From assembly GCF_030646615.1 (NCBI RefSeq), contig NZ_JAUSLG010000038.1, positions 62,001 through 126,000 of the forward strand: a DNA stretch of 64,000 nt, read 5' to 3'. The notes under the pieces are model-generated. The model had not been told where the DNA came from. It saw only the letters and a list, made by a program, of their open reading frames with translations, and ran no database searches. Source of the stretch: Phenylobacterium sp. (GTDB lineage: Bacteria > Pseudomonadota > Alphaproteobacteria > Caulobacterales > Caulobacteraceae). The position numbers were made by a program, and so were the translations under genes. Of the stretch, positions 3,697-11,412 are shown in pieces (the first letter of the stretch is position 1; each line of letters opens with the position of its first letter).

Positions 3697-5580
3697 TCAG
3701 GTCCGCGTCGCGAACTCCGCATCGCCGGTGGCGGCCACCTGGGCGTCGTCGAACGAGGCGTGGGCCGAGGTGTAGAGCCGCGAATAGAGCCCCTTATTGG
3801 CCATCAGCGCCTCATGCGGTCCCTGCTCCAGGATGTGGCCCTGCTGCAGCACGATGATCTTGTCGGCGTCGCGGATGGTGGCCAGCCGGTGGGCGATGAC
3901 GATGCAGGTGCGTCCCGCAAACAGCACCTTCAGCGCCTTCTGGATCGCCTGTTCGGTGAAGGAGTCGATATTGGCTGTGGCCTCGTCGAGGATCAGGATC
4001 TGGGGATCGGCCACCAGGGCGCGGGCGAAGGACAACAGCTGTCGCTGTCCCAGCGAGAGGTTGCGGCCCCGCTGACCGAGCTGGGTGTCGTAGCCCTCGG
4101 GCAGGCGCATGATGAAGTCATGGGCCGAGACGGACTTGGCCGCCGAGATCACGTCCTCCCGGGTGGCGCCTTCGGTGTTGTAGCGGATGTTCTCCTCGAT
4201 GGTGCCGCTGAACAGGAAGGGCTCCTGCAGCACCATGCCGATATTGCGGCCCAGGGACTCCAGCGTCACGTCGCGCACGTCGCGGCCGCCGATCAGCACC
4301 TGGCCCTGGTCCACCTCATAGAAGCGGTGGGCGAGCGCGATGATGCTGGTCTTGCCTGAGCCGGTAGGGCCCACCAGGGCGACCACCTGGCGGGGCCGGA
4401 CCTCGAAGCTCACATCGTGCAGGACCGGCCGAGCCGGATCATAGCCAAAGGTGACATTGCGGAACTCCACCGTCGGCTCGAAGTCGGCCAGGGGCTGGGC
4501 GTCGGGCTTGTCGACAATGGTCACCGGCACATCCAGCACCTCGAAGATCCGGTGCCCGGCCGCCATGGCCCGCTGCATGATGGTGTACTGCATGGACAGC
4601 ATGCGCACGGGATCGAAGAACCGCTGCACATAGAAGATGAAGGCGACCATGACGCCGACGTCCAGCCGCCCCCCCAGCACCGCATTGCCGCCGACCACGA
4701 TGACGATGCCCATGGCCAGGCCGGTCAGCACGTCCACCGTCGGCACCATCACCTGGGTCATGGCCGCCGAGTTGTTCTGGGCGACCATGTTCTCCCGGGC
4801 CTTCTCCGAATAGAGCTCGAAGTTCATCGCCTCGCGGCGGCTCTCCTGGACGGTGCGGACCCCCTGGATGTTCTCGGCCAGGGCGCTGTTGGCGGTGGAC
4901 GATGCGTCGCGGGCTTCCCGGAAGGTCTTCTTGGAGAAGGGCAGCCAGATGGCCCGGACCACGATCAGGGCCGGGATCACCGTGAGGGTCAGCAGGCCCA
5001 ACTGCAGGTCCATGCTGAGCAGGGCGACCGTGATGCCGATCAGGAGCGCGATGTCGCCCACTGCGCCTGTGGTGCTCTCCAGGAACTCCTGCAGGGCGTT
5101 CACGTCCCCCTGCAGCCTGGCCATGATCCGGCCCACATGGGTCTTGTCCATGAAGGACAGGGAGACGTCCTGGAAGTGGCTGAACATGGAGCGGCGGACA
5201 TCGAAGATGACCCGCTGGGCCAGCCGCGAACTCATCCACTGTTCGAGGAAGAAGGCGCCGGCGTTCAGGATCACCACGCCGACGAAGACGGCGATGATCA
5301 TGTCCAGGCGCGCATTGTCGCCGCCGCCGACCGCGGCGTTCACCGCCTGGCCGATCATGTAGGGGATGGCGATGGCCGTGGCCGCCGAGATCAGCACGGC
5401 GATCTGCGCCCCGATCACGAACGCCTTGTGCGGCTTCAGATAGGGGATGAACCGCCCCAGGACCTTGGGGTTGATCGAGGCGAAGATCTCCTCGGCGTCG
5501 TCATTGCCCAGGGTGGCCCGGGGCCGGCGGGGCGTTTGCGAGGCGACATCATTGCCGCGGTCGAAGACGAAGTCGCTCAT
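3697..5580 (-). CDS. ABC transporter ATP-binding/permease (heterodimeric exporter subunit)
   Basis: Walker A GPTGSGKTS, signature SLGQRQ, Walker B ILILDEATANID; N-terminal TM region. Confidence 0.93.
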   Translation of the reverse strand: MSDFVFDRGNDVASQTPRRPRATLGNDDAEEIFASINPKVLGRFIPYLKPHKAFVIGAQIAVLISAATAIAIPYMIGQAVNAAVGGGDNARLDMIIAVFVGVVILNAGAFFLEQWMSSRLAQRVIFDVRRSMFSHFQDVSLSFMDKTHVGRIMARLQGDVNALQEFLESTTGAVGDIALLIGITVALLSMDLQLGLLTLTVIPALIVVRAIWLPFSKKTFREARDASSTANSALAENIQGVRTVQESRREAMNFELYSEKARENMVAQNNSAAMTQVMVPTVDVLTGLAMGIVIVVGGNAVLGGRLDVGVMVAFIFYVQRFFDPVRMLSMQYTIMQRAMAAGHRIFEVLDVPVTIVDKPDAQPLADFEPTVEFRNVTFGYDPARPVLHDVSFEVRPRQVVALVGPTGSGKTSIIALAHRFYEVDQGQVLIGGRDVRDVTLESLGRNIGMVLQEPFLFSGTIEENIRYNTEGATREDVISAAKSVSAHDFIMRLPEGYDTQLGQRGRNLSLGQRQLLSFARALVADPQILILDEATANIDSFTEQAIQKALKVLFAGRTCIVIAHRLATIRDADKIIVLQQGHILEQGPHEALMANKGLYSRLYTSAHASFDDAQVAATGDAEFATRT

Positions 5581-7624: not shown

Positions 7625-8431
7625 TCAGGCCGCCGAAGGGTGGGCCTGTGGCGTCAGGGTGACGGGATTTCGCGGCGCCCTGGGTCGGGCGCGAATCCGC
7701 TCGCCCTTCAGCCAGATCTTCAGGGCTTCCCAGTGGATGGCGCCCATGACGCCCAGGGTCATCCAGGGGTGGCCCAACCAGGCGGCCAGCAGGCGCCGGT
7801 CATCCAGCGGCTGGCGCTGACCGGCGAAGCTGGCCGAGAGCAGCGGCCCCTGGGCGTCGGCCACCTCGATGCTGACGGCCAGGCCAGCCGTCTCGCCCTG
7901 TCCCGGCGGACGGACCTTGAAGGCGTAGGTCAGGTCCATGTCCATGAAGGGCGAGACGAAGAACACCTTGTCGGCGCTCTGGCGCACGACCCCGCCCGAC
8001 CCGTCCGCCGCCACCGGGATCAGATAGCTGTGCCGGTCGCCGAAGGTGTTGTTGACCTCATAGAGGATGGCGCTGAGCGCCCCGTCCGGCCGATGGCAGA
8101 AATAGACGCTGATGGGGTTGAAGACGCCGCCCAGCACCCGCGGCATGCAAAGCAGGCGCACCGCCCCGCCGCCCTCTAGGCCCGCCGTCGCCAGGTGTTG
8201 TTCCACCTGGATCTTGAGCGGCGTTTCCGAACCGTCCCCGTGGTCGCAGGTCTGGAAGCTCATCAGACCAGGGCCGTCGAAGCCGAACAGGCGAAGCCCC
8301 CGACCCAGCGCCGGCCCCTCATCCAGGTCCAGCAGCAGCATGAAGATGCGATAGCGCAGGGCGTGCGTCCGCGGCCGCGTCCGCCGATGGCTGACGAGGC
8401 CGGAATACAGCGCGCTGGCGCGCTCGCTCAC
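7625..8431 (-). CDS. DUF1365 domain-containing protein
   Basis: YSGLVSHRRTRPRTHALRYRIFMLLLDLDE ... LGGVFNPISVYFCHRPDG typical DUF1365. Confidence 0.9.
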   Translation of the reverse strand: MSERASALYSGLVSHRRTRPRTHALRYRIFMLLLDLDEGPALGRGLRLFGFDGPGLMSFQTCDHGDGSETPLKIQVEQHLATAGLEGGGAVRLLCMPRVLGGVFNPISVYFCHRPDGALSAILYEVNNTFGDRHSYLIPVAADGSGGVVRQSADKVFFVSPFMDMDLTYAFKVRPPGQGETAGLAVSIEVADAQGPLLSASFAGQRQPLDDRRLLAAWLGHPWMTLGVMGAIHWEALKIWLKGERIRARPRAPRNPVTLTPQAHPSAA

Positions 8432-9789
8432 GCGGCCGCCTCGGCCAGGGCGGCGGCGGCCGGAGGCGACAGGTGGATGCGGCCGGACTCGTCCTTCACC
8501 GACCAGGGCCGGCGGACGCCCCCCAGCTGCTCGGCGACGGCCAGGCCTGACTGCAGGCCGTCCTCATGGAACCCATGGCCGAAATAGGAGCCGCAGAACC
8601 AGGTCCGCTTCACCCCCTGCAGGCCCCAGAGTTCCTGCTGGGCGGCGATCGCCCCGCCATCGAACAGGGGGTGGTCATAGACATCGGTGCGGATCACCGC
8701 GTCGGGCGCGATCTCCCGGGTCGGATTGAGGGTGACGAACAGCTCGGGCCTGGCCGGCAGGCTCTGGAGCCGGTTCATCCAATAGGTGACACAGCCCTCC
8801 TGCGGGGCGTTGCGCCGGCCGATGTGGTTCCAGCTGGTCCAGGCCGCCCGGCGCCGCGGCATCAGGGCCGGGTCGGTGTGCAGCACCGCCAGGTTGCGGC
8901 TGTAGCGGAAGGCCGACAGAAGCCGCGTCTCCTCGGCCGTCGGATCCTCAAGCAGGGCCAGAGCCTGGTCCCCATGGGTGGCGATCACCACCTCGTCGAA
9001 CCGCTCCACCTGGCCGCTGGCCAGGCGGATATCGACCCCGCCGGCCTCGCGGCGCACGCCGGTGACTCGGACGCCCGTGCGCACCTCGCCCTGAAAGGCC
9101 TGGGCGAGCTTCTCCACATAGGCCCGACTGCCGCCCTCCACCGTCCGCCAGAGGCCGCGGCCGAACACCTGCATCATGCCGTGGTTCTGGAAGAAGCGGA
9201 TCAAGGCCGCGGCCGGATAGTCGCGGATGGCCGCCAGGGGCGTCGACCAGATGGCCGCAGCCTGGGGCAGCAGGTGATCGTCGCGGAAGGCCTGGCAGTA
9301 GCCCTTCTGCTTCAGATAGTCGTCCAGGCTGGTCAGCGGCGAGTCCAGCTCGGCCAGGTCCTTGGGTCCGTTGCGGTAGAAGCGGGTGACATCCCGGAGC
9401 ATGCCCCAGTAGCGGGCGCTGAAGAAGTTGCGCTTCTGGGCGAACAGCGAGCCCGACGAATATTCGAACGCCCCGTCGTCCAGGGAGACGCTGAGCGCCA
9501 TGTCGGCGTCGATGCTGGGGGTCTCCAGGTGCTTCAGCAGGGCGGTGAAGTTGGGATAGTTGTCCTCGTTGAAGACGATGAAGCCCGTATCCACCGGAAT
9601 GACCCCGTCGGGCCCGCCGGGAGCCTCCACCGTATGGGCGTGGCCGCCGAGGCGGCCATCGCCTTCGAACAGGGTCACCTCGTGGCGAGCGCTCAGGAGC
9701 CAGGCGGCGGAGAGTCCGGCGACACCGCCGCCGACAACCGCGATCCGCAACGGCCTGGAAGTGCTCTCTACGCCCACGGGCATTCCCAT
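8428..9789 (-). CDS. FAD/NAD(P)-binding oxidoreductase (amine-oxidase-like)
   Basis: RIAVVGGGVAGLSAAWLLSARHEVTLFEGDGRLGGHAHTVE dinucleotide-binding motif; ATGA overlap with DUF1365 gene; internal start at 9789 or 9783. Confidence 0.88.
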   Translation of the reverse strand: MGMPVGVESTSRPLRIAVVGGGVAGLSAAWLLSARHEVTLFEGDGRLGGHAHTVEAPGGPDGVIPVDTGFIVFNEDNYPNFTALLKHLETPSIDADMALSVSLDDGAFEYSSGSLFAQKRNFFSARYWGMLRDVTRFYRNGPKDLAELDSPLTSLDDYLKQKGYCQAFRDDHLLPQAAAIWSTPLAAIRDYPAAALIRFFQNHGMMQVFGRGLWRTVEGGSRAYVEKLAQAFQGEVRTGVRVTGVRREAGGVDIRLASGQVERFDEVVIATHGDQALALLEDPTAEETRLLSAFRYSRNLAVLHTDPALMPRRRAAWTSWNHIGRRNAPQEGCVTYWMNRLQSLPARPELFVTLNPTREIAPDAVIRTDVYDHPLFDGGAIAAQQELWGLQGVKRTWFCGSYFGHGFHEDGLQSGLAVAEQLGGVRRPWSVKDESGRIHLSPPAAAALAEAAA

Positions 9790-9828: not shown

Positions 9829-9856
9829 GATACGACGCGAGCACCGCGGCGGATGC
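9829..9856 (-). promoter_or_regulatory. Candidate ECF-sigma promoter (GCATCCG-N15-CGTATC) for FAD oxidoreductase/DUF1365
   Basis: Reverse strand GCATCCG (9856-9850), 15-nt spacer, CGTATC (9834-9829); same architecture as the plus-strand copy. Confidence 0.6.
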
Positions 9857-9868
9857 AGCCAAGGTGAC

Positions 9869-9896
9869 GCATCCGAACCTCCGCCTTGCGCGTATC
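9869..9896 (+). promoter_or_regulatory. Candidate ECF-sigma promoter (GCATCCG-N15-CGTATC) for CFA-like gene
   Basis: GCATCCG 9869-9875, 15-nt spacer, CGTATC 9891-9896, about 65 nt before ATG 9962. Confidence 0.6.
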
Positions 9897-9961: not shown

Positions 9962-10990
9962 ATGAGTTTCATCAGTTCGACCGTCCAGGCCTTCGAGGGC
10001 GCGCCCATCCCCGATGTCATGCGGCGCGTGGCGATCGAACTGCTGGTGGCCAACGCCCGTCGGCGCCTGGGCGCTGCAGGGCGAGACGCTGAAACCGCCT
10101 TCGCCCTGGAGATGGCCCAGAGGCCCATCGCCGAGCACGCCGCCGCGGCCAATGACCAGCACTACGAACTGCCGGCCGCCTTCTTCGAGAAGGTGCTGGG
10201 GCCGCAGCTGAAATACTCCTCCTGCCTCTATGGCCCCGGCGTCGAGGATCTGGCGGCGGCCGAGGAAAATGCCCTGTCCGAAACCGCCGATCATGCGGGT
10301 CTGGCGGACGGCCAGGAGATCCTGGAGCTGGGCTGCGGCTGGGGCTCCCTCACCCTGTGGATGGCGCGGGCCCTTCCGAACGCCAGGATCACAGCGGTGT
10401 CCAATTCGGCCAGCCAGGGGGACTTCATCCGCAGCCGGGCCGGCGCCCTTGGGCTGACCAATGTCACGGTGGTGACCGCAGACATGAACGTCTTCGAGGC
10501 GGCCGGCCGCTTCGACCGCGTAGTCTCGGTGGAGATGTTCGAGCACATGGCCAACTGGCGCGCCCTGCTCACGCGGGTGCGCGGCTGGCTGAAGCCCGAG
10601 GGGCGGGCCTTCATCCACGTCTTCACCCATCGCACCACGCCCTATCGGTTCGATGTGGAGGACGAGGCCGACTGGATCGCCCAGCACTTCTTCTCCGGCG
10701 GGGTGATGCCCAGCCACGGCCTGATGGCCCAGTTTCCCGACCTGTTCGAGGTCGAGGCCGACTGGCGCTGGTCGGGCCGCAACTATGAGCGCACCGCCCT
10801 CCATTGGCTGGAGAATTTCGACCGCCATGACGCCGCCCTGCGCGAGGTGCTGGCCGAGGTCTATGGGGACGCGAGCCCCCTTTGGCGCCGCCGCTGGCGG
10901 CTGTTCTTCCTGGCCACGGCCGGCCTGTTCGGTCACCGGGACGGGCAGGAGTGGGGCGTCAGCCACTATCGTCTGAAACCGTCGGCCTGA
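9962..10990 (+). CDS. Cyclopropane-fatty-acyl-phospholipid synthase-like SAM methyltransferase
   Basis: NDQHYELPAAFFEKVLGPQLKYSSCLY and ILELGCGWGSLTLWMA motifs. Confidence 0.9.
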   Translation: MSFISSTVQAFEGAPIPDVMRRVAIELLVANARRRLGAAGRDAETAFALEMAQRPIAEHAAAANDQHYELPAAFFEKVLGPQLKYSSCLYGPGVEDLAAAEENALSETADHAGLADGQEILELGCGWGSLTLWMARALPNARITAVSNSASQGDFIRSRAGALGLTNVTVVTADMNVFEAAGRFDRVVSVEMFEHMANWRALLTRVRGWLKPEGRAFIHVFTHRTTPYRFDVEDEADWIAQHFFSGGVMPSHGLMAQFPDLFEVEADWRWSGRNYERTALHWLENFDRHDAALREVLAEVYGDASPLWRRRWRLFFLATAGLFGHRDGQEWGVSHYRLKPSA

Positions 10991-11001
10991 AGGACTCGAC
11001 C

Positions 11002-11412
11002 ATGCTGAAATATGTCATCGGCTATCTGGGCGCGGGCCTGGCCTTCGCCCTCATCGACGCGGTCTGGCTGACCACGGCGGGGCCCAAGCTCTATCGGCCG
11101 ACCCTGAACGCGGTGCTGGCCGACCAGTTTTCCCTGCCCCCGGCCATCGCCTTCTATCTGATCTATATCGCCGGCATCATGATCCTGGCGGTCAGTCCGG
11201 CGGTGCGCGAGGGCGTCTGGACCCAGGCGCTGACTACCGGCGCCATCCTCGGCTTCCTCTGCTACGCCACCTATGACCTGACCAACCAGGCGACGCTGAA
11301 GGTCTGGGCGACCCACATCACCTTGGCCGACATCGCCTGGGGCACGGTGCTGACCGGCGCCTCGGCCACCGCCGGCTACTTCGTCACCCGTTGGGCCGAG
11401 CGCACCTTCTAG
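11002..11412 (+). CDS. DUF2177 family membrane protein
   Basis: ALIDAVWLTTAGPKLYRPTLNAVLAD...CYATYDLTNQATLKVW; multiple TM segments. Confidence 0.87.
   Translation: MLKYVIGYLGAGLAFALIDAVWLTTAGPKLYRPTLNAVLADQFSLPPAIAFYLIYIAGIMILAVSPAVREGVWTQALTTGAILGFLCYATYDLTNQATLKVWATHITLADIAWGTVLTGASATAGYFVTRWAERTF

Follow-up and report, generated by a model that had tools for sequence, protein, structure and literature searches.

Two divergent SigK-type promoters probably control a likely furan fatty acid gene module in Phenylobacterium

Introduction

Phenylobacterium is a soil and water bacterium. The closest described counterparts of the gene cluster analyzed here come from Rhodobacter, Mycobacterium tuberculosis and Yersinia enterocolitica. 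The Rhodobacter furan fatty acid pathway is composed of UfaM, UfaD and UfaO, of which UfaO carries DUF1365 (PMC7380195), and the genes induced by photo-oxidative stress in R. sphaeroides include RSP1091/1090, fasciclin and folE2 (PMC7074977). According to PMC7509140, mpt70/mpt83 of M. tuberculosis are under SigK control and SigK is itself autoregulated via Rv0449cp; the signal that activates SigK-RskA is described there as unknown.

The window (the whole 64,000-nucleotide stretch of Phenylobacterium sp. DNA that was analyzed) contains CFA-like, FAD amine-oxidase-like and DUF1365 genes, as identified with Pfam, on either side of an intergenic gap with two divergent promoter-like motifs. Its named relatives assign the window to Phenylobacterium. 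The locus resembles the UfaM/UfaD/UfaO pathway in having a CFA-like methyltransferase, an FAD desaturase-like protein and a DUF1365 protein. It differs in that control is apparently exerted by SigK and not by RpoE-ChrR. The gap very probably holds two divergent SigK-type promoters (GCATCC-N16-CGTA), predicted to be recognized by a sigma factor of the SigK family (ECF18/19) that is encoded on another contig, C41. This assignment is based on the sigK-rskA pair on C41, the homologues of SigK targets, the motif-bearing cassettes of other genomes and the co-occurrence of the cluster with SigK.

Twin motifs and flanking genes

Inspection of the sequence places GCATCCG-N15-CGTATC twice and in divergent orientation, at 9869-9896 (+) and 9856-9829 (-) (Table 1). 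The original prediction of two identical motifs, each with a spacer of exactly 15 nt and with 12 bp between the facing -35 elements, was thus correct in every detail. Its reading of them as ECF-type promoters also agrees with the sequence comparisons below, as does, at the level of probability, its proposal of a single sigma factor for both directions: one sigma factor probably drives both divergent promoters. A housekeeping sigma-70 promoter was also sought, and none was found within the intergenic gap. The start of the FAD gene may be ATG 9789, ATG 9783 or GTG 9777. Together, FAD-DUF1365 and CFA-DUF2177 likely constitute a furan/methylated fatty acid module, judging from gene content.

Table 1. 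Predicted promoter elements and genes at the divergent locus (positions within the window; TSS, transcription start site)
Feature	Position	Strand	Basis
DUF1365 protein, UfaO-like	7625..8431	-	Pfam DUF1365 E 1e-76; 4-bp overlap with FAD gene (operon)
FAD-dependent oxidoreductase, UfaD-like	8428..9789	-	Pfam Amino_oxidase, NAD_binding_8
-10 element CGTATC, FAD-directed promoter; predicted TSS ~9822	9829..9834	-	sequence; TSS inferred
-35 element GCATCCG, FAD (UfaD-like)-directed promoter	9850..9856	-	sequence; GCATCC-N16-CGTA in 39/39 related loci
12-bp spacer separating both -35 elements	9857..9868	.	length -2 to 14 bp among relatives
-35 element GCATCCG, CFA-directed promoter	9869..9875	+	sequence; divergent exact copy in 28/39 related loci
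-10 element CGTATC, CFA-directed promoter; predicted TSS ~9903	9891..9896	+	sequence; TSS inferred
CFA/CMAS-type methyltransferase, UfaM-like	9962..10990	+	Pfam CMAS E 3e-33
DUF2177 membrane protein (plus-strand operon, behind the CFA gene; likely start 11002)	11002..11412	+	Pfam DUF2177 E 6e-43

Conservation and genome-wide occurrence of the motif

For comparison we used 39 loci of related Phenylobacterium in which the divergent cluster is complete. All 39 have an exact FAD-directed GCATCC-N16-CGTA, and 28 have an exact divergent copy as well (20 with N16 and 8 with N17). Among these relatives the gap between the -35 arms takes values of -2, 6, 7, 12, 13 or 14 bp, while the distance from each arm to CGTA stays constant at N16, or N17 in the 8 divergent copies. 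In a fortieth locus (L264) the FAD-directed site was found on inspection, at about position 4900. Such conservation among diverged relatives settles that the twin motif is real. In a Phenylobacterium lacking both CFA and SigK, the same gap contains a lone GCATCC (L256:4898) that lacks a correctly spaced CGTA and is perhaps a relic promoter.

Within the 3.85 Mb genome, the strict pattern GCATCC-N14..18-CGTATC has three matches, two of which are the twin pair. The looser GCATCC-N16-CGTA has seven, compared with none for a reversed-pattern control. Since the reversed pattern (0.3/Mb across genomes of the genus) underestimates chance, genomes without SigK were taken as a second background. Their motif density is about 1.0/Mb, versus 1.8/Mb in SigK genomes. 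At 1/Mb about 2e-4 sites would fall in a 172-bp gap, so that the twin sites are not expected by chance; a few of the single genome matches may be, given the density in SigK-less genomes.

Of the seven genome sites, six are found a short distance before a start codon and the seventh is intragenic. Besides the twin pair (FAD and CFA), the genes preceded by the motif are DUF1295, fasciclin, DUF6134 and folE. In five sister genomes the pattern precedes DUF1295 (five genomes), DUF6134 (four), folE (one) and fasciclin (one with exact N16, the others with N17); folE is preceded by the motif in two genomes only. Taken as a regulon test, fasciclin and the FAD-DUF1365-CFA-DUF1295 gene types each have the motif upstream. 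A few fasciclin orthologues within SigK genomes are without it. Nor was it found in three SigK-less genomes with fasciclin (G007, G035, G064) or in ten SigK-less genomes with FAD-DUF1365 and no CFA. An additional divergent GCATCC twin pair occurs at an unrelated place (L212:6327-6333) in genome G031, which matches Phenylobacterium aquaticum. The same genome encodes a second ECF sigma factor of SigK-like type (41%), whose gene is preceded by GCATCC-N15-CGTA (L211:8426).

The SigK-RskA pair and its linkage to the motif

The sole RskA (RskA_C) domain found in the genome adjoins an ECF sigma factor gene on contig C41. Among solved structures, M. tuberculosis SigK (4nqw) is the best match to this sigma factor, and the C41 protein has a cysteine aligned with each of the two redox cysteines of that SigK, 133 and 183. 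According to PMC7509140, these two cysteines are conserved in 94% of ECF18, 56% of ECF19 and <2% of other families. The C41 protein scores 164 bits against the NCBIfam SigK model, for which the cut-off is 226 bits. In the phylogenetic tree it groups with the SigKs encoded at loci that have the motif and is separate from ChrR-paired RpoE, and the other ECFs of the genome are placed outside the SigK clade. In this genome the fasciclin gene is not adjacent to sigK-rskA.

In other genomes the motif is directly linked to sigK-rskA. Five Phenylobacterium loci (L201, L202, L203, L214 and L217) have cassettes of the form sigK-rskA-[motif]-fasciclin, and in Novosphingobium resinovorum the motif likewise lies between sigK-rskA and fasciclin. 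Burkholderia anthina and Caballeronia sp. NK8 have an operon sigK-rskA-DUF1295-CFA-lipocalin-FAD-DUF1365-CFA in which DUF1295 and FAD are each preceded by the exact motif; in B. anthina the same holds for sigK. An unannotated stretch of C. insecticola displays the same pattern of sites as these operons. The motif was not found at sigK-rskA-fasciclin loci of S. meliloti and of two Paracoccus plasmids.

The sigK-rskA-lipid operon and a sigK-rskA-fasciclin cassette lie on plasmids typed as conjugative (L304 and L303; Burkholderia anthina, Novosphingobium). The SigK lipid/fasciclin module can therefore probably move between species. Streptomyces plasmids also encode FAD or FAD-DUF1365 genes; the two that were opened have no nearby sigma factor, and no exact copy of the motif was found in the one scanned (L308).

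Among 72 Phenylobacterium genomes, 40 have both the cluster and SigK, four the cluster only, 11 SigK only and 17 neither. For genomes at least 90% complete the corresponding numbers are 39, 0, 8 and 10. The Fisher p value, ~1e-6, is uncorrected for kinship, by which the co-occurrence is confounded. All four cluster genomes without a detected SigK are at most 83% complete.

Comparison with the RpoE-ChrR class

The original prediction named a TGATC-like -35 element for homologous clusters under RpoE-ChrR. For other alphaproteobacteria this proved right: TGA(T/A)CC-N16-CGTA is present, on one or both strands, in 26 of 29 FAD-DUF1365 clusters linked to rpoE-chrR. In contrast, the 39 loci like the present one contain no TGA(T/A)CC-N15..17-CGTA, and a single one of the 29 linked loci, L295 of Devosia sp., has GCATCC. 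The two promoter classes have the -10 element and the spacing in common and are distinguished by the two leading bases of the -35 element. These two bases therefore follow the sigma factor.

In L295 the cluster lies beside rpoE-chrR, GCATCC-N16-CGTA precedes the FAD gene and there is no TGATCC promoter; the same genome also encodes a SigK-like sigma factor (46% identity). L295 is thus a possible intermediate between SigK and RpoE-ChrR control. Both types of cluster can be found in a single Phenylobacterium genome, surely in G004 and in part in G023.

Alternative explanations

Could it be an RpoE-ChrR (ECF11) pair that recognizes the promoters, as part of a singlet-oxygen response like that of Rhodobacter? 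Membership of this regulon had been suggested for the locus. Homologous clusters beside rpoE-chrR are common, with five inside Phenylobacterium (L206-L210), and the photo-oxidative stress genes of R. sphaeroides listed above include homologues of the present targets. However, the ChrR cupin (Cupin_7) has no match in the genome, and the -35 elements are of the other class, as the counts above demonstrate. On these two grounds RpoE-ChrR was discarded as the regulator here and the suggested membership was not borne out; we consider it very improbable. That the window itself contains no rpoE/chrR pair, as had been noted, holds. Some other ECF sigma factor of the genome is an equally improbable reader. 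At least ten further ECF-like sigma factors are encoded, and the genome's own sigK is unlinked to the cluster and has no GCATCC-N16-CGTA-type motif upstream of sigK-rskA. Against this, the motif is directly linked to sigK-rskA in other Phenylobacterium and in Novosphingobium, Burkholderia and Caballeronia, the motif-bearing cluster co-occurs with SigK, and in the tree the genome's other ECFs do not join the SigK clade.

A different kind of explanation would make GGATGC...GCATCC a palindromic operator, for example of a MerR/LitR-type light regulator, instead of paired -35 elements. The arms are indeed inverted, and in 13 relatives they form a perfect overlapping palindrome, GGATGCATCC. Yet each arm moves with its own CGTA, at 16-17, while the gap between the arms varies, and therefore two promoters fit better than one operator. 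Moreover, DUF1295, fasciclin and other genes are each preceded by one copy only, with unchanged spacing and no palindrome. A single palindromic operator was rejected on the variable arm gap and these single copies, and we regard it as very unlikely. Divergent SigK-type promoters are thus the preferred reading of the gap.

Proposed SigK-RskA regulon and its implications

According to the SigK reading, membrane-anchored RskA would release SigK, and RNA polymerase with SigK would start transcription at about 9822 (-) and 9903 (+). The transcripts would encode FAD-DUF1365 and CFA-DUF2177, whose likely product is a furan or methylated fatty acid. The same SigK would also transcribe the genes for DUF1295, the fasciclin lipoprotein, DUF6134 and folE elsewhere in the genome. 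The inducing signal is perhaps photo-oxidative membrane damage.

The -35 element of M. tuberculosis SigK is of CCATCC type. The mycobacterial regulon (Rv0449c-Rv0444c, mpt83/mpt70) and the one proposed here have in common the SigK-RskA pair with conserved SigK cysteines and fasciclin (MPT83-like) targets. Presumably, Rv0449c-Rv0444c also contains the same FAD, DUF1365, CFA and DUF1295 gene types as Phenylobacterium; DUF1295 we take to be a mycobacterial SigK target type from the annotation of Rv0446c. Unlike in M. tuberculosis, sigK-rskA of the present genome lies apart from the lipid genes and has no motif upstream, the lipid genes form two divergent operons with twin promoters, and DUF6134 and folE appear as additional targets. 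The mpt83-sigK-rskA cassette of Yersinia enterocolitica is likewise a Gram-negative SigK-RskA system with a SigK site before the fasciclin gene. It differs in that the part of PMC7509140 considered here mentions no furan fatty acid-type genes there, whereas the Phenylobacterium lipid module bears the motif.

Compared with RpoE-ChrR (ECF11) of R. sphaeroides, the targets are homologous, namely ufaD/ufaO, fasciclin and GTP cyclohydrolase (folE2), and rpoE-chrR-linked loci have the same -10 element and spacing. The differences lie in the -35 element (TGA(T/A)CC there, GCATCC in the Phenylobacterium cluster) and in the partner protein, a cupin-type ChrR there and RskA here, ChrR being absent from the genome. 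Judging from these sequence comparisons, a SigK-RskA regulon in Alphaproteobacteria very probably controls the lipid module that RpoE-ChrR controls elsewhere. More tentatively, and with somewhat less than even probability, SigK-RskA and RpoE-ChrR may have swapped control of this module for membrane-lipid protection within one genus through a change in no more than the two leading -35 bases (GC versus TG), with the -10 element and spacing kept.

The two promoter classes represent a natural test of -35 discrimination between related ECF sigma factors. FAD, DUF1365, CFA, DUF1295 and fasciclin genes stand under SigK-type promoters here, whereas relatives have these target types under RpoE-ChrR. 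This points to a common stress, and Phenylobacterium, a harmless alphaproteobacterium, offers a safe and tractable system for probing the stress that SigK-RskA senses. If control was indeed swapped between the two pairs, the stress sensed by SigK-RskA in both Proteobacteria and mycobacteria would be of one kind, namely photo-oxidative or singlet-oxygen lipid damage.
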